The notes under the pieces were generated by a model, which did no database searches, was not told the origin of the DNA, and saw only the letters and a program-made list of their open reading frames with translations. The position numbers and the translations under genes are program-made. DNA of 64,000 nucleotides from Chaetoceros tenuissimus (lineage: Eukaryota; Bacillariophyta; Thalassiosirophyceae; Chaetocerotales; Chaetocerotaceae), in the NCBI GenBank assembly GCA_021927905.1, contig BLLK01000022.1, positions 868,001-932,000 of the forward strand, in the 5' to 3' direction. This document shows positions 17,086-38,048 of the stretch, piece by piece; position 1 is the stretch's first letter; each line of letters begins with the position of its first letter.

Positions 17086-17190
17086 TGCATACATTGGAGT
17101 TATTCTAAAAATTAAATCAAATTCAAATACGACGAGAAAAAGAACTTAGTTGGAAAATAATGTGGTTACAAGCCAATTTTGCCGTAGTCA

Positions 17191-17711
17191 GATGTGGATT
17201 TTCCACATTAAATTCCTACAGATGCTACGTACGACTTCCACTTTTTACCGTATTTTGTTAGGAGAAAATTTCGTACGTGAAAATTGACGGAATTTGATGT
17301 ATAGTGTAGAGTAGATGTAAAGTAGAACTTTTTCGAAACTAGTTTTAATAGTTAGAGGTAGATCCAAAACAATGTGTGGAGATGAGAGCCACTTGTTTCG
17401 GCATGGTAAGCCTTCATCAGTTGGCGTAACCTTCTATTTTTCATTTTGTGAGCGATAATGAGTCATCGCTGATATTAGCTAAATTAGCCTAATCTCCCGG
17501 GCATGACACAGTATGAAAATGTACTGCAAAATGTTGTACGGTGTGCTCACAATTCCAAATTAAATGATTTTTTTCAAATCGAGACATTATCTGTTCGCTA
17601 CACATTAAATTCCTACAGATGCTACGTACGACTTCCACTTTTTACCGTATTTTGTTAGGAGAAAATTTCGTACGTGAAAATTGACGGAATTTGATGTGGA
17701 AAATCCACATC
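17191..17711. mobile_element. Composite MITE-like element with inverted ends and internal direct repeats
   Basis: The outer ends (17191..17216 and 17686..17711) are 26-bp inverted repeats with one mismatch; the outermost 14 bases GATGTGGATTTTCC and GGAAAATCCACATC pair exactly. Inside each end lies one of two identical 96-bp direct repeats (17205..17300 and 17602..17697) that enclose about 300 unique bases. Each 96-bp unit itself begins ACATTAAATTCC and ends GGAATTTGATGT, i.e. has near-perfect inverted termini. No coding capacity and no clear target-site duplication are visible. It could be a small DNA-transposon derivative in which one 96-bp MITE was duplicated around other sequence. Confidence 0.65.
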
Positions 17712-18516
17712 TCGTAGAAGGGAGTACGTACACCGCCATACTCTTCCATTATACAATACACACATAACACATAACTAGCCTTTCTATCATGCAGTATATC
17801 ATATAATTCTAACAACAATCCACAAGTTGTAGGGCAGAGCATTTTAAAAGAGGAGGATCGAAATTAGGAACAACAACGAAATGAGGACAAGGACTACAAC
17901 TAGCTAGCTGCGCCATCACATATCACATACTTTCAGCCGAGCGAGGAGCCATGCATGGCTGACGAGGATATGACCATCAAGCGACCACAGCAATCACTAA
18001 TGAACTTCACTAGAGGTGATGATAGAGATTACAAAACAGATGAATCAATGATGAGAGAATTCATTTACTTGTTTACCTGGCTGGTACAAGATCTGGGCAA
18101 GCTACGAGGAGTAGATTCTTCTTGATAGGATGTCGATGAAGATAGATCATCTTTTCCATAGCTTTCATATTGAATTTTGAAAAGAGTAAAAAACGATAAT
18201 AACGACGAAAAGGAAATGGTGAAATTGTATTAGGAGACAGTGCGAGGAGTAAAGATGACAAAAAATGGACGAAGTTTGACTTGTGGAAATGGTTGGAATC
18301 GACACCATTTTCGACCGCAATGATGATGATCTTGATGAAAAAATAATCATTTTAAAATATATTTTTTCTATATACATGAAATAAATAAATTGTAGTGTAT
18401 AGGTTGAAATAGTTAAACGAAGAAATTCAAAAATGTGAGCACATCTGCGAGAGACGTGCTGAGAGTGTGTGGCTGATGTGAGATGTGGATCTTTGGTATC
18501 AAGGTCCCTAGCTAAA

Positions 18517-18540
18517 TGTGGAAAATCCACATTAAATTCC
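18517..18540. repeat. Third copy of the palindromic element end
   Basis: The sequence ATGTGGAAAATCCACAT followed by TAAATTCC repeats the left terminus of the element at 17191, with the AAA/TTT centre flipped. No matching right end is found before the next gene, so it is a solo or truncated end. Confidence 0.6.
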
Positions 18541-18712
18541 ATCCATGACTACATACTCTCTCATCTTTTAGCTAAAATGACTTAGTCCCGTATTTGCGGT
18601 GTCAATGGCGATGAAGACATTGGGTCACACTCTACTTCTAAAATGACCCCAGTTCACTAATACCATATCACCGCATAAAAACCATTCCACAAAGGTACTA
18701 GAAGAAAACGTA

Positions 18713-30995: not shown

Positions 30996-33168
30996 TTATG
31001 GTGAAAATGCGAATGATTCATCTTTGTTCTTTTCAACACCTCTCCTTTGTTTATCCATGACCACTTGTATTTCCTTCTGAAGCATTTTCCCCTCCTCCTT
31101 CTCTGGTCCAGGATAATCTAGCAGTCTTTTACAGCACATCATAGCCATGTCAAATTGACGGTTATCACGATAGTAACAAGCTAAGAAAAGCAGCCCTTCT
31201 GCCTCTGGCTCGTCAACATTTACATTCATTATAGTCGTTCGCAAAGAATTACCCCCTTCAGGCACGCCGTCCACTTTTGAATGTTCTAACTGTGCTTGAT
31301 ATCTTAAATCCAGGTGACGTACATAGCACTTTGCTGCTCTCTCGTTGTCACCGTCTTCCTTAAATAGACTTGCAAGTTTCATGGTTGCAACACCTTCTGC
31401 GTCTCCATTTGTTACAGCACGATCAAAAGATTTGATAGCATCATCTCTTCGATCAAGTGCTAGATAGCACGTCCCCATCGCACACCACATTCTTGCATCG
31501 TACGGTTTGACTTCAACTGCCTTTCGATAATAGTGTAATGAATACAAGAACATGTCCATCATTTCGTAGAGTTGACCTAATCCGTACCATGCTCTGTAGT
31601 CATTTGGATTAATATCTACAGCTCGTCGATAAGATTCAATAGCCGCCGAAGTATTTAACATTTCCATGTATGCATGTCCTAGTAATGTCCATGTGTAGCA
31701 GTAACTACGATCTAACTTCAACGCGCGTTGGAAGTATTGTACTGCTTTTTGATGATGACCTTTTAAGGAATAATAGTTTCCAACAATAATACAAGTTTCT
31801 ACTCTGTATTTGTCCAATTTCATAGCTCGATGAGCTAGAGTCGAAAGTGTCACTTTGTCTTCTTTCACAAACAACACATTTGAGTATACATCCATTTGGT
31901 CTAATTTCTGTGGATCTTTGCTCTCTAAAAGTTGAAAGTGCTCTTGGGCTGTATCATAATCTCTAAGTTCCGCGTACGCGACAGCCAGCTCTGCGAGCAG
32001 GTATGTGCTGGAAATAAAGAATCCCATTTTATCAATCTCGTCATTTCCGTCAATCAATCTCTCAATAAGGATGATTGCCTTCTCTTCATTTTGGTTCTTC
32101 ATAAAAACATGAGCGCGAAAAAAATAATACATCCAGTGCGAATTTATTGGTTTCAGAGATTCTTCAACTTCCTGATCGATCGAAGGATTTGATACACATA
32201 ATTCAGCAAGGTCGAGCCATGCTGACCAGTTGTATGGAAACTCGAGAATAGACTCAACAAACATTTCATGAGCAAATGCTGTTCTTTCTCCACCTCGGTA
32301 AACAGTTGATCTAGGGCTACCTACAAATTTTGCCTTCGCAGGAGTCTTTTCCATTTCTTTCAATGCAACTCCATACATGTAAATTCCAAATGCATCAAGT
32401 TTCTTGCCATTATACATTTCTTGTAATTCAGTCACAATATAAGGAAGATTCTCATTTTTCATTGCTGTTCTTTCTAGTGGGTCACTTTATCAAATAAGTG
32501 CACTTGTGAGTATAAATTGAAATTTTAAAAAGATATGAACTATCAGGGAGAAGGACTGATATAACATACCGTAGTTCCAAAACTTCTTCTTCTTTTCGTC
32601 TTTCACCAGCCATGTATAAAGCATATGCTCTTAAATATGTTCCATAAGAAGTTAAATCATCTCGAGGCGGTTGAATAATCAAATCACCACCTTTATTGCC
32701 AATCCTCTTCTTGCCAGTAGGCGAAAGAATAGTATCCCCATTCTCATCTACGCCTTCAGGACTCCTACTGAGAATTCCTGCGCACCTACGATATTCACCA
32801 AGGTCAAATACGCTTTTGGCGTATAATTCAATGTCATTTCCAGGCATTAGATATTCAGCATATGGAGATGTTTTCGTGTCTTTTCGTTTACTAATTCCAG
32901 TATGAGCCAAGGAATTGAGCTGTTCAGCAGCCCAACGAGATGCTAATTTCAACCCCATATTTCCAAGGATAATCGTTGCAGTACGAAGGTTTTCTCTCGC
33001 TTCTTCCAAGTCCCAAATATCGCTATTTGACGCTTTCATTATAGAATGAGAAAAGTTTCTATTTGTAGTTGTTCCTGATGGTGTAGCGGCATTGTGTTGT
33101 GGAGAAAAGAGGGAGTTTGTGGTATCCATACTCATACTCATGCCACTCATATTTGAACTGGCATCCAT
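30996..33168 (-). CDS. CDC23: Anaphase-promoting complex subunit 8 (CDC23)
   Basis: Minus-strand exons are 33168..32570 and 32484..30996, encoding 695 aa; the 85-nt intron has GTATGT and GATAAAG ends. The join reads VLELRDPLERTAMKNENLPYIVTELQEMYNGKKLDAFGIYMYGVALKE, matching the APC8 N-terminal half. Residues ~45-200 form the conserved N-terminal helices (WDLEEARENLRTATIILGNMGLKLASRWAAEQL, YGTYLRAYALYMAGERRKEEE). The rest is a TPR superhelix, e.g. CIIVGNYYSLKGHHQKAVQYFQRALKLDRSYCYTWTLLGHAYME, NPNDYRAWYGLGQLYEMM and KPYDARMWCAMGTCYLAL. As part of the APC/C TPR lobe it drives ubiquitination of cyclins and securin. The N terminus is Met/Ser-rich. A Crypton-like element lies just upstream of its start. 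Confidence 0.93.
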
Positions 33169-33501
33169 GGTTCAATCTTGTAGATATAACGTTCAATGGT
33201 GATAACTCTATCTATCGCTGTTAAGAGAACTGTTAATAGCAATAACTACAATAACTTAGTTAGAAAATACAGGCAAAAAGGCCTCTTTCCACAGGCACTT
33301 TTCGCCTGTATTTTCGAAATATTAAAACATTACCCCCACCACTTTATTATGGAGGGGGTATGACAAAAAATAATATGCGATAATCCATCGAAAATACAGG
33401 CAAAAAGTGCCTGTGCCATACAATTGTACGTAGGAGTGCATAAGTAGATACTGCTGATTGATTTCATCAATATATTACCTTTCATAATATTATTAATAAG
33501 C
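33169..33501. promoter_or_regulatory. Divergent region holding the left end of a Crypton-like element
   Basis: 333 bases between the APC8 start and the recombinase ORF. Its first ~90 bases should carry the APC8 promoter. The remainder holds three copies of the element's inverted-repeat site (see 33263..33415). The insertion lies within ~100 bases of the APC8 start codon. Confidence 0.5.
33263..33415. repeat. Cluster of recombinase-site-like inverted repeats, left end of the Crypton-like element
   Basis: A 27-bp motif occurs at 33389..33415 and, in opposite orientation with one mismatch, at 33290..33316; a partial third copy starts at 33263. Each full copy contains ACAGGC and GCCTGT arms around a 7-bp spacer, the architecture of a tyrosine-recombinase core site. 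Bases 33263..33316 form a near-perfect hairpin (GAAAATACAGGC/GCCTGTATTTTC). Between the two opposed full copies lies another hairpin, TACCCCC (33331..33337) paired with GGGGGTA (33354..33360). Confidence 0.7.
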
Positions 33502-35979
33502 ATGCGGACTCAAGTACATCCTGATGTTCTAAACCTAGTTGCCAACAGCAGTGTTGTGGAACAAAACGTGGTTACTGAGAGTACACGAGAACATTATACA
33601 AGAAGATTAGTAGAACTGGTAAAATGGCTGTACAAGGAGAAGCAAGAAGTGCTGTCACAAGAAACTATTACTACTATGGCAGCAAAAATGCAAGAAGATC
33701 GACAGAATAGATCAAAGTCGCTAACAAAGACAACTCAATATTTGAAAAAAAGAATTGATAAATTACGCCGTCATGATCCTTCATCAAGTCCAATTCTTAT
33801 AGATCGATTCACATATGATATTGTTTCTGAGTTTTTTGTGACAAAGTCAAATATTGAAACTGTGGATGTTTCCCTTGCTTTAAAATTTTATCGAAAATTG
33901 CAAAGTTATGATAGAGACGAGGATGATGATGGACATGATACAGAAGACGAAATTCGTATAGAGCCAGATGAAAATGGACAGGTCAAAATTGCCGTAAGGC
34001 AAGAACCATCAACATACGAAGGATTCAGATCTGCCATTGCACATCTGTACCGAGAAATAGATGTACCTATGCCAGTAGAAATGGCCCTTAATTTAAAGAG
34101 ATACATTGCTGGTTCCCAGAGAATAAATGATGCTGCAAAACAGTGCTTGGGATTAAAAGTGAAGTCAGGGAAGGATCATATGACAATTGAGGTGTACGAG
34201 AAAATTGCAAAACTTTTTTTTTATTCCGGGAAAACAGAGCACGTTTTTGCACATGCCTTCCATGTGCTGGATTGGAATCTTATGAAGCGTGCAGAGAATG
34301 TTGCACATTGTAAAATTGCGCATATTTTTTTCTGCAACGACTCCCTTGTTTTTATTTTTGCAAAAAGCAAGAGTACGAAAAAAGAGGAAAAGTTTCTAGG
34401 CCCATGGCACGTCTATGCAAACCCTCACAAGCCGTGGTTATGTCCTGTTCTAGCACTAGCTAGATATTTACTCACCTACCCAGAAGCATTTGCAGGTAGC
34501 CGCCCTCTCTTCGAAGGGAACAACTCTTATAGCAGATACGATAAAGAATTCAACACCCTTCTTAAAAAGAACAAAGAAGAGATTGAATCTCTTGGCATTA
34601 AAATCAAGGATCTTGGTACCCATTCAGCAAGAAAAGGTGTTGGTACATGCCTTGCCTCTGGATGTACAGTTTCGCCTCCAATCGTTTCAATTTGCCTACG
34701 CATGGGATGGGCGTTAGGTGGTGTCTTAGGACGCTACTTCAAGCATGCAGATGCAGGCGATGAATTCTGCGGCAGAATGGCATCTTTGGTAGAGAAAGCA
34801 CTTGAGAAAGAATTTGCGGTTAGCTGTCCTTACTTTGATTTTACTGAATTAGAAAATGAAGATGAAAAGGAAAAAATGAAAAAAGAACTTCAAGATTTCA
34901 TTGACGCACGTCTACCTACAAACACGTCTCCAGCTGCACGCCGTGTGGCAAGATGCTTGTTCGCATCTGTGTGTTACCACCACAACACATTGAAAGATAC
35001 TCTACATGAGAGCTGTCCGTTTCGTCAATCAAGGTTCTTCATAGATATGCCTCCAAAAATACAAGAGCTCAGTAGAGTTGCCTATCCATGGAACTCTACT
35101 GCTGATACTCCCAAGCTCACTGGCATCCCCCCTTACATAATTCAACTCGCTGAATTTGCACAAGTGAGGAACGAACTAGTTGCGCTTAGAGAATCTCTAC
35201 AACCTATTGTTGCTGGTGAACTTGACGAGCGAGGTGTTGGATGCACTGAATTTTACACAAAAAGGATGCATGAACGACTTGATGTGCTAGAGGATAGGCT
35301 GATTGAAAATAATAGAGAGATGGTACAAGAGATAAAAGGAACGGTTGAGGATAGACTTGAGGAGATTGAAAATACCGAGAATTTTGATATTTTTGAAGAA
35401 AACAAAGATTCAACCACGGAAAATGCACAAGTTTCACAGCGAAAACGAAGGAAGATCACAGCAGGAATGGTGAATGGTGTGGTGACAGTGTTGCCAAGTG
35501 ATTTTGAGTTTCCAAAAGGAATTACAGCTACTCATTTGATTCAGAACTGGTTCCTTGGAAACCGGATGGAAGGTATTGTGCCGTATAGGAGGCTATCTGC
35601 AAAGATTCTCATTAATGAAGCGCAAAAGAAATTGTTTAGAAGGATGAAACAATTCATGAATTGTATCAAGTTTTATGCAGAAGCCGAAAAATGTTGGATT
35701 GAAGGAAACAATATATCTGTCGCTGCTGTTGTCAAAATTTGGCAAAGAGTTGGTTGGAAATGGATTTACCAAAAATACGCTGAGAAGAGTGATAAAAAGT
35801 TTTCAAGGTTTGAAACTCTGTCATGGCAAACGATTGTTGACAAGATGAATAGAAGAGGTGCCTTTCGACAGAAACAAAATGATTGCAAAAACGATGGGGA
35901 GTGGTTGCGTTCCATATATAGTGGTTTGGCATTGAATGCTATTGGAGAAGGAGAAGAAAATAACACAGAAAATGTCTAA
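33502..35979 (+). CDS. Tyrosine recombinase with C-terminal GCR1_C-like DNA-binding domain (Crypton YR)
   Basis: 825 aa, single exon. Residues ~24-220 are the helical core-binding region (STREHYTRRLVELVKWLYKEKQEV). The catalytic domain spans ~225-445. Candidate active-site residues are R263 (NLMKRAENV), H374-x-x-R377 (GTHSARKGVGTCLASG) and Y412 (GRYFKHADAGD). The set R, HxxR, Y is as expected; position of the nucleophile is inferred from family spacing. A helical linker with a predicted coiled coil (~575-640) follows, then a Lys/Arg patch QRKRRK. The tail VLPSDFEFPKGITATHLIQN...PYRRLS at ~662-760 resembles GCR1_C, a DNA-binding domain found in fungal Cryptons. The enzyme would recombine the CAAAAAGTGCCTGTG-containing sites flanking it. 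The HSARKG...GRYFKH arrangement is, to my recollection, shared by multicopy recombinases in algal genomes. Confidence 0.85.
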   Translation: MRTQVHPDVLNLVANSSVVEQNVVTESTREHYTRRLVELVKWLYKEKQEVLSQETITTMAAKMQEDRQNRSKSLTKTTQYLKKRIDKLRRHDPSSSPILIDRFTYDIVSEFFVTKSNIETVDVSLALKFYRKLQSYDRDEDDDGHDTEDEIRIEPDENGQVKIAVRQEPSTYEGFRSAIAHLYREIDVPMPVEMALNLKRYIAGSQRINDAAKQCLGLKVKSGKDHMTIEVYEKIAKLFFYSGKTEHVFAHAFHVLDWNLMKRAENVAHCKIAHIFFCNDSLVFIFAKSKSTKKEEKFLGPWHVYANPHKPWLCPVLALARYLLTYPEAFAGSRPLFEGNNSYSRYDKEFNTLLKKNKEEIESLGIKIKDLGTHSARKGVGTCLASGCTVSPPIVSICLRMGWALGGVLGRYFKHADAGDEFCGRMASLVEKALEKEFAVSCPYFDFTELENEDEKEKMKKELQDFIDARLPTNTSPAARRVARCLFASVCYHHNTLKDTLHESCPFRQSRFFIDMPPKIQELSRVAYPWNSTADTPKLTGIPPYIIQLAEFAQVRNELVALRESLQPIVAGELDERGVGCTEFYTKRMHERLDVLEDRLIENNREMVQEIKGTVEDRLEEIENTENFDIFEENKDSTTENAQVSQRKRRKITAGMVNGVVTVLPSDFEFPKGITATHLIQNWFLGNRMEGIVPYRRLSAKILINEAQKKLFRRMKQFMNCIKFYAEAEKCWIEGNNISVAAVVKIWQRVGWKWIYQKYAEKSDKKFSRFETLSWQTIVDKMNRRGAFRQKQNDCKNDGEWLRSIYSGLALNAIGEGEENNTENV

Positions 35980-37075
35980 AAATTTCATAATAAATATTGC
36001 AATTTTTTTTTTGGTTTGAATTGTGTTTCATTGGATCGATGTTTGAATGTAATTGAAAAGAAAAGGTTGACGAAAAGAAAGTTTTGTGTCAGAAGGAGAA
36101 GATCGACGAGACAAGCGACGAGCGACGAGGGAAGGTGAGGAAAGAGGCTAGCTACTGTACACTGCCTGTTGACATACTGGCTAGTCACAGGCGAAATACT
36201 GGTCAAAAAGTGCCTGTGTTTTCGCTCCATGATATTTTTGAAGAAAACAAAGATTCAACCACGGAAAATGCACAAGTTTCACAGCGAAAACGAAGGAAGA
36301 TCACAGCAGGAATGGTGAATGGTGTGGTGACAGTGTTGCCAAGTGATTTTGAGTTTCCAAAAGGAATTACAGCTACTCATTTGATTCAGAACTGGTTCCT
36401 TGGAAACCGGATGGAAGGTATTGTGCCGTATAGGAGGCTATCTGCAAAGATTCTCATTAATGAAGCGCAAAAGAAATTGTTTAGAAGGATGAAACAATTC
36501 ATGAATTGTATCAAGTTTTATGCAGAAGCCGAAAAATGTTGGATTGAAGGAAACAATATATCTGTCGCTGCTGTTGTCAAAATTTGGCAAAGAGTTGGTT
36601 GGAAATGGATTTACCAAAAATACGCTGAGAAGAGTGATAAAAAGTTTTCAAGGTTTGAAACTCTGTCATGGCAAACGATTGTTGACAAGATGAATAGAAG
36701 AGGTGCCTTTCGACAGAAACAAAATGATTGCAAAAACGATGGGGAGTGGTTGCGTTCCATATATAGTGGTTTGGCATTGAATGCTATTGGAGAAGGAGAA
36801 GAAAATAACACAGAAAATGTCTAAAAATTTCATAATAAATATTGCAATTTTTTTTTTGGTTTGAATTGTGTTTCATTGGATCGATGTTTGAATGTAATTG
36901 AAAAGAAAAGGTTGACGAAAAGAAAGTTTTGTGTCAGAAGGAGAAGATCGACGAGACAAGCGACGAGCGACGAGGGAAGGTGAGGAAAGAGGCTAGCTAC
37001 TGTACACTGCCTGTTGACATACTGGCTAGTCACAGGCGAAATACTGGTCAAAAAGTGCCTGTGTTTTCGCTCCAT
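35386..37075. repeat. 845-bp tandem direct duplication of the Crypton 3' end
   Basis: Unit 1 (35386..36230) and unit 2 (36231..37075) look identical on reading. They cover the last ~197 codons of the recombinase, its 3' flank and the right-end site. The first junction joins ...CTCCAT to GATATTTTTGAAG. A 3-base microhomology (TGA) at the break points is visible. The period is not a multiple of three. Identity implies a very recent event, or a local assembly error. Confidence 0.85.
36084..36824 (+). CDS. Orphan GCR1_C-like ORF created by the tandem duplication
   Basis: A 246-aa frame that starts in the 3' flank of unit 1 (MCQKEKIDETSDERRGKVRKE), crosses the right-end site and junction in frame, and continues into the duplicated recombinase tail from DIFEENKDS to the original stop. 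It would carry the DNA-binding domain without any catalytic domain. If expressed it could compete with the full recombinase for DNA. Expression is unproven; the new leader has no recognisable domain. It may equally be a by-product of the duplication. Confidence 0.4.
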   Translation: MCQKEKIDETSDERRGKVRKEASYCTLPVDILASHRRNTGQKVPVFSLHDIFEENKDSTTENAQVSQRKRRKITAGMVNGVVTVLPSDFEFPKGITATHLIQNWFLGNRMEGIVPYRRLSAKILINEAQKKLFRRMKQFMNCIKFYAEAEKCWIEGNNISVAAVVKIWQRVGWKWIYQKYAEKSDKKFSRFETLSWQTIVDKMNRRGAFRQKQNDCKNDGEWLRSIYSGLALNAIGEGEENNTENV

Positions 37076-38048
37076 GACTACATAAAAAAAGTTGTCGGAG
37101 GTTGGGTCGTTGGAAATGCGAAAGAGATTGCTTACACGTACGTACTAGATGGACTATTACGAGATTTATAAAAATTAAATAGCTAGACTAATAGCTATAT
37201 TACCATTCTTGAAATAGGTTTTGAACTGCATAACCCTTTTTTCATGTTGTCTATCTACTAACTATCTTTATGAAAATAATAGATAAGTTGAAGTGCTAAC
37301 GTAGCCAGTCGTCAATGTTGCGCTTTATTTTATTTTTTTTTCTTTCTCAACCACAACGAATACATTAGGCTAGTTGCTAGCCATGGTATGGTACTGTAGT
37401 AATGTACATACAAACTTCGTAATAGGAGTGAGTAACTGTCCAATTAAATTCCAGTTCGTTGTCGTATGACGTCCCCTTCCTGTAAGTATCGTAGACATCG
37501 GAGAGCAACGGCGAATCCAAAAAGTTCAGTAATTGTGAGGGAAGCTATACTTAATAAAAAGAAAGGTATGTTCGAAAATCCTTTAGTTTTTTTCCGTGAT
37601 ATTCAACCTCTTCATATAGTTAAAAGAAGAGAATGAATTCCTCCAAATGAAAATCGAAACTCATTTGTTAAAGGTGGAAGGAAGGAGGAAGGGAAGTTCA
37701 AGTAACCGGCTTTGGACTGGATGGACTAGTAAGTAGCATACCTACTGGGAATCAAAAATCAATCGTTTTTCGGTTATATTTACGACTTTCTGCACACCCC
37801 CTTTTATGCATCTGCCAAAAATTGGACATTTTGATATCTTATTGTTTTGGAACGATTGCGGATCCATGATTAGAATGATGTTCTTTTTGTAGTTCAAGGT
37901 GTAAACACAGATATTCCCCGCAACCAGCAACATCTTGCGATCATCATGTCTCACTTCCAATGTCCCACTTGCTGGTTCCTCCTTCTTACTAACAAACGAC
38001 ACACAGTTCGCAAAACTTATAATAGTAAAACTCCCCTGTGTAAACAAG
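37076..38048. other. Intergenic
   Basis: About 970 bases between the Crypton right end and the thiol dioxygenase gene. A minus-strand 174-codon frame at 37742..38266 largely mirrors the first exon of that gene and is not supported. Poly-T runs occur near 37330 and 37590. I see no other structure. Confidence 0.4.

Follow-up and report, generated by a model that had tools for sequence, protein, structure and literature searches.

A Crypton-like element with short end cores in the diatom Chaetoceros tenuissimus

The stretch of DNA analyzed here, referred to as the window, comprises 64,000 nucleotides of contig BLLK01000022.1 from Chaetoceros tenuissimus and corresponds to C16:868001-932000 in the contig numbering used below. 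The genome searched consists of 41,027,912 bases in 68 contigs; it has been reported as 41.0 Mbp with 38.9% GC (PMC8613185), and the GC content of the window is 38.7%. The window contains a mobile element with an intact open reading frame (ORF) of 825 amino acids (aa; 33502-35976 excluding the stop codon). Next to it is an ORF (32482-33168) that matches ANAPC8 (APC8/Cdc23; PF04049, E=6.8e-17). An earlier note on this DNA described a Crypton-like element with an intact recombinase ORF lying within 100 bases of the APC8 start codon. Both the ORF and its proximity to this gene hold, the element being separated from the ATG of the ANAPC8-matching gene by 85 bases. Based on the sequence evidence, the element is probably a Crypton-like transposon whose single tyrosine recombinase (YR) enzyme recombines AC[N]T cores at both element ends with a target core of AC[A/G]T, and we place the probability of this reading at about 0.85. 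The features that can be read directly from the assembly are precise ends, a defined core, a duplication-free insertion on contig C22, near-identical dispersed copies, and array junctions that contain a single core.

The window element and its copies

Two further full copies, on contigs C22 and C42, match window positions 33254-36232 with 2 and 0 differences, respectively, in 2,979 positions. Both consist of the equivalent of this interval plus CTAC, for a length of 2,983 bp, and both start with ACTTAGTTAGAAAATACAGGC and finish with CTCCATGACTAC. The termini of this family, designated family A, are ACTTAGTT... on the left and ...GACTAC on the right. All three full copies sit in unrelated flanks. 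Heterozygosity in C. tenuissimus is reported as 1.56% (PMC8613185), and set against that value the 0-2 differences in 2,979 bp suggest recent movement.

The features of the window copy are listed in Table 1. The unit contains one long ORF, and the only other ATG-initiated ORF of at least 150 aa is one of 170 aa in the duplicated tail. This duplication, in which positions 35385-36232 and 36230-37077 agree at 848 of 848 positions, is missing from the C22 and C42 copies. It is most likely a later gain through a 3-bp microhomology event rather than a product of the recombinase. Because it is the distal right end that is intact, with its right-end pattern at 37066-37081, excision by the core model would take the whole unit from core to core. 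The span of 33263..37063 proposed earlier falls only 9 and 18 bp short of this unit, but the left 15-mer site on which it relied is set back about 140 bp from the left end.

Table 1. Coordinates of mobile-element features in the window
Feature	Position	Strand	Basis or detail
Family A mobile unit, window copy, core to core	33254..37081	+	Boundaries common to the C22 and C42 copies in other flanks; right-end pattern match C16:905066-905081
Left putative crossover core ACTT, its AC common with the target	33254..33257	+	Copy boundaries, array junctions, C22 empty site
Right putative crossover core ACAT: AC is the element end, AT the target side	37080..37083	+	12/12 host-facing right ends have AC then [AG]T
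Left subterminal block: ACAGGC at 33269, 33291 and 33396; GCCTGT at 33304 and 33409; holds the earlier note's left site	33269..33414	+	
ORF of the 825-aa putative tyrosine recombinase, stop codon included	33502..35979	+	R263 K290 H374 R377 W403 Y412
Proximal right end: GCCTGT at 36164, ACAGGC at 36187, GCCTGT at 36212; terminates CCATGA, CTAC core lost	36164..36232	+	
Element tail, second copy: exact match to 35385-36232	36230..37077	+	845-bp period, 3-bp TGA microhomology at the joint
Distal right end, intact: the earlier note's right site (ends 37063) and terminal TTCGCTCCATGACTAC	37009..37081	+	
Second window element: 1,409-bp non-autonomous family B member	17144..18552	+	Left ACTTAGTTGGAAAAT, right TTCCATCCATGACTAC then AT

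The assignment of the 825-aa protein to the tyrosine recombinases rests on a conserved R-K-HxxR-W/H-Y set that is spaced much as in Cre. When families A, C, and D were aligned, R263, K290, H374, R377, and Y412 were invariant in all three, and position 403 was W, W, and H. The steps from R to K, H to R, R to W, and W to Y are 27, 3, 26, and 9 residues, compared with 28, 3, 23, and 9 in P1 Cre, where the letters at the catalytic positions were checked. Profile searches added little. The only Pfam matches to the window protein were below the cut-off (DUF2120, E=0.047; DUF87, E=1.6), and in PHROGs no match to the proteins of families A and C fell below 0.17, while the family D protein had one weak match of unknown function (E=0.0012). 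Three lipase/hydrolase chains matched in the PDB sequence search at E 0.044-0.046 were taken as chance. The GCR1_C-like tail that had been attributed to the protein found no support in profile searches. GCR1_C was absent among its Pfam matches to E<=5, and the best GCR1_C match in the genome, in another gene, scored 17.4 bits, below the cut-off of 23.

Target sites, end cores, and arrays

The joined flanks of five insertions were searched against the genome for matches that span the joint. The C22 copy sits inside a repeat, and the same contig carries a partner repeat with the uninterrupted sequence CTAATTATTACATATCATATAT. In a longer reading, CACTAATTATTACATATCATATAT, the partner has a 2-base insertion further along relative to the filled site. 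At the filled site, with a slash marking each joint, the left border is ATTATTAC/TTAGTTAG and the right border is GACTAC/ATATCATATAT (in a longer reading, GACTAC/ATATCATAT). Apart from the element itself, the filled site has two AC cores in place of one and shows no other gain or loss. Because AC and AT are both present in the empty target, the target at C22 reads AC[A/G]T. All five of the further repeats that were read are also uninterrupted at this site; the ACAT of the partner corresponds to ACAC in C48, C16:3590512, C44, and C27 and to ACAT at C54:1968100. Judged from this one closely matched site, insertion is precise at the short core AC[A/G]T and makes no further target duplication. A second, weaker case is provided by C43, where nine paralogous matches of 70-73% identity span the joined flanks. 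The paralogue read at the joint, on C14, has no insert and no gap and is too diverged to fix the bases. The two checks set by the earlier note mostly favor it: the C22 and C42 copies have the motif at each end (the shorter relatives at one end), and the search for an empty site yielded paralogous examples.

The ends themselves lead to the same core. The right-end pattern TTCNNTCCATGACTAC has 20 matches in the genome (reversed control, 1), eight of which are array junctions. [A/G]T follows every one of the 12 host-facing right ends (AT in 10, GT in 2); base composition would give, by our estimate, about 15% per end. Three of these ends, at C21:1116788, C29:378672, and C17:1122214, are known as pattern matches alone. 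The left-end pattern likewise has 20 matches (reversed control, 3). Seventeen lie within elements described here, one at C38:1178205 is without the family motif, and those at C16:3217370 and C16:3312048 are known as pattern matches alone.

Related elements also occur head to tail. The junction pattern CCATGACTACNTNGTTRG has eight matches in the genome and none in the reversed control, and all eight are in arrays. At C38:1132680, two short units of 1,059 bp are joined as CCATGACTACATAGTTAG. The family B array on C54 has five starts; its period is about 3,138, one diverged unit measures 2,876, and the units meet as CCATGACTACTTAGTTGG. A search with the family A/B junction found another array, on C21, that has four units: three junctions at a spacing of 1,031 bp, four left ends, and one right end (111743-111758); its letters were read at the outer ends. 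In family C, two units at C38:769993 share a single TAGATAT at their joint. Each of these clean arrays joins its units through one copy of the core, and among the 12 A/B loci whose right ends face host DNA, three are arrays. Literature searches found no report of head-to-tail Crypton arrays, which is not proof of absence, and in the available text of one survey of these elements the word "tandem" is present once, in the reference list (PMC3212892).

The main rival explanation is that the arrays arose by duplication, through microhomology or unequal crossing-over at short flanking direct repeats, and then spread by homologous unequal crossing-over, or that they are partly assembly artefacts. 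We consider the odds to be against it, although not heavily. The units are nearly or fully identical, with 0 differences of 1,059 in the short C38 array and 100% identity over 4,264 bp in family C. Four of the five C54 units have a stop at the same place, so that a broken copy was multiplied. Moreover, the tail duplication in the window is clearly of the microhomology kind, and a C29 array with a period of 2,578 is a segmental duplication off the element ends. In contrast, the four clean arrays join exactly through a single core of only 2-7 bp, and chance microhomology would usually land elsewhere, as it did in the window copy.

The C29 repeat had been considered as an end-to-end array and was rejected because its units do not finish at element ends. 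It occupies C29:102558-118034 and runs to the edge of the stretch read. Its units, which are about 99.8% alike, mix other DNA with the 5' portion of a recombinase gene from family D.

Subterminal motifs and the proposed mechanism

Inside the cores, each family has motifs of its own, which were assessed against simple base shuffles. In family A, ACAGGC (on either strand) occurs eight times in the outer 170 + 100 bp and is absent inside; a shared 6-mer exceeded four occurrences in 0 of 500 shuffles. Family B has ATGTGG nine times in its ends and once inside, with 0 of 500 shuffles above five. The family C motif, ACACCC, occurs five times in the ends and twice inside and is weak, because 6 of 500 shuffles reached five or more. 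The A motif is absent from B and the B motif from A, while the core and outermost bases are common to both. In the outermost 30 bases, inverted matches without an offset number 8, 7, and 2 in families A, B, and C. With an offset of four bases, the best of nine, they number 15 of 30 in A and 17 of 30 in B. With the motif at comparable depth in the two ends, these can be described as imperfect inverted relatives.

The earlier note had placed crossover elsewhere, at two 27-bp sites built from ACAGGC/GCCTGT, with excision between them. Some of this description stands. The left copy does have ACAGGC and GCCTGT arms around 7 bp (33396-33414), which resembles a YR site, and the 15-mer CAAAAAGTGCCTGTG recurs in the same orientation at 33401 and 37049, but the right copies have CTGGTC in place of ACAGGC. 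A third copy at 36204 was overlooked because 35385-36232 is repeated exactly as 36230-37077. Genome-wide, the 15-mer has ten matches, all inside the ends of family A, and its reversed pattern has none. The window copy holds three, C22, C42, and C38 two each, and C43 one, which is inverted and lies in the left end. The sites are therefore common to both ends, in direct orientation, of the three full copies, whereas both short C38 units carry the 15-mer in the left end only. Additionally, the full copies stop only at the AC core, about 140 bp past the left 15-mer site and 18 bp past its right counterpart, and family B has the same core with a different motif. Crossover at the 27-bp sites is rejected as highly improbable, because the shared boundaries, the array junctions, and the empty site all lie elsewhere and use the core. 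Overall, the earlier observation is partly confirmed and its interpretation partly supported. The element appears to be a Crypton-like YR element with directly repeated sequences at its ends, but the direct repeats that matter are the cores. The ACAGGC/GCCTGT sites, including those described earlier, appear to behave as a subterminal motif set.

It is also highly improbable that the YR reading is wrong and that a DDE-type cut-and-paste transposase or a retrotransposon mechanism is at work; no searched profile database recognizes the protein as a YR and the offset ends are imperfect inverted relatives, but at the C22 empty site the target is not duplicated beyond the core, the outermost bases of A and B have few inverted matches without an offset, the single long ORF is without a reverse transcriptase (RT) or DDE match, and the complete catalytic set is found in 3/3 aligned families.

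In the favored Crypton-like reading, the recombinase would excise the element as a circle by recombination between the end cores, leaving a predicted joint of CCATGACTAC[N]TAGTT (in longer form, CCATGACTAC[N]TAGTTAGAAAATACAGG). The circle would then reintegrate at AC[A/G]T. The enzyme or its C-terminal tail may bind the subterminal palindromes, which contain ACAGGC in family A, and so choose its own ends. Arrays would grow when a circle or a circle dimer integrates at the end of a resident element. Tentatively, and at somewhat less than even odds, the ends may carry a two-part code that consists of a core common to A and B and family-specific subterminal palindromes. With such a code, circles would re-enter resident elements and build arrays because the circle joint is itself a good target.

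Several observations weigh against the recombinase and core reading as a whole. No Pfam or PDB sequence match marks the 825-aa protein as a YR. Its hhalign comparison with Cre did not reach significance (E=0.29, probability 0.2%) but placed the R box in register, and structure predictions were of low confidence, with mean predicted local distance difference test scores (pLDDT) of 39.6 (single-sequence AlphaFold2) and 38.2. In addition, the empty sites are paralogous rather than allelic, and only C22 is close enough for a base-exact joint. The joined-flank genome search gave no spanning match beyond their own sites for the window copy, the C42 copy, and the short C38 element. The core is also short, consisting of AC plus a conserved T.

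Known systems and sister families

Based on its general features, the element is Crypton-like and of a kind already known; the arrays and two-part ends may be a variant. Specifically, a YR identified by its sequence motif, with the R-K-H-R-W/H-Y residues of tyrosine recombinases, is the sole candidate transposition enzyme, with no RT. The terminal direct repeats are short: ACTT/ACAT in family A (AC[N]T, in which one base varies) and the 7-bp TAGATAT in family C, compared with 4 or 6 bp in the first Cryptons. On the absence of terminal inverted repeats, another general Crypton feature, the ends point both ways, with few inverted matches when no offset is applied and about half of 30 in A and B when one is. 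Insertion at C22 is precise and without duplication beyond the core, and the head-to-tail junctions are consistent with a circular intermediate. Lambda-type integrases have separate core-type and arm-type DNA motifs, but the likeness to the window element is an analogy only, with no arm-binding domain identified in the window protein. Starships are large cargo carriers, whereas the window element carries only its recombinase.

The likeness to the Starship elements of fungi lies in YR-driven movement, short direct repeats, and a proposed circle, and for Starships no circle had been reported according to the available text of the source (PMC12506042). CryptonS elements, known from oomycetes and Phaeodactylum, resemble the window element in having a single YR gene, short terminal direct repeats, and stramenopile hosts (PMC3212892). 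However, most are described as having TATGG termini and repeats of 5-6 bp, in contrast to AC[N]T in families A and B or TAGATAT in family C (PMC3212892). Some members carry a C48 (Ulp1) peptidase, as family C does here, but as an additional protein rather than fused within a single 1,153-aa ORF (PMC3212892). CryptonF elements of fungi and oomycetes share a YR with a long C-terminal region and short terminal direct repeats, and CryptonF-2_PS and related elements likewise carry a C48 peptidase, so that an Ulp1-type peptidase is reported for both groups in oomycetes (PMC3212892). CryptonF proteins include GCR1_C, in contrast to the window protein (PMC3212892). The element is not placed in CryptonF because no GCR1_C was found, nor in CryptonS because it does not have TATGG termini.

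The second element in the window (Table 1) has the same core, AAAAAGA/AC...AC/ATACTC, and its left end is repeated internally. Family C is represented at C38:769993-778513 by two identical 4.26-kb units whose ORF fuses a YR to the peptidase (PF02902, E=6.3e-37). Family D, at C18:86792-89167, has an intact 792-aa recombinase-like frame that is 27% identical to the window protein. At C17:1122214-1127380, left and right ends of family B are separated by about 5.2 kb on the same strand and accompanied by a recombinase fragment, and this is probably another element. The interval C43:218979-235893 was considered as a 16.9-kb cargo-carrying member and rejected; it is a short C38-type relative with about 15.7 kb inserted between its halves. 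The insert contains several long frames, some of which appear RT-like or DIRS-like by eye. Five of its frames or part-frames had no Pfam match, and two of these also had no PHROGs match. Scans of IMG/VR for relatives gave none that was confirmed. At C22:38801-46108 there are paired retroelement-like repeats, spaced about 4-6 kb and bearing a terminal repeat of only about 96 bp, and similar pairs are found on C44, C48, C27, and C16:3585778-3590738. One such repeat hosts the C22 copy.

The movement of eukaryotic YR DNA transposons is largely inferred. With its near-identical copies, clean empty site, defined core, and predicted circle joint, the present system, in what is probably a cultured diatom, makes the model testable. 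If the two-part code is true, the arrays would be a fossil record of the circle joint. Moreover, a precise recombinase with a small core could interest genome engineers.

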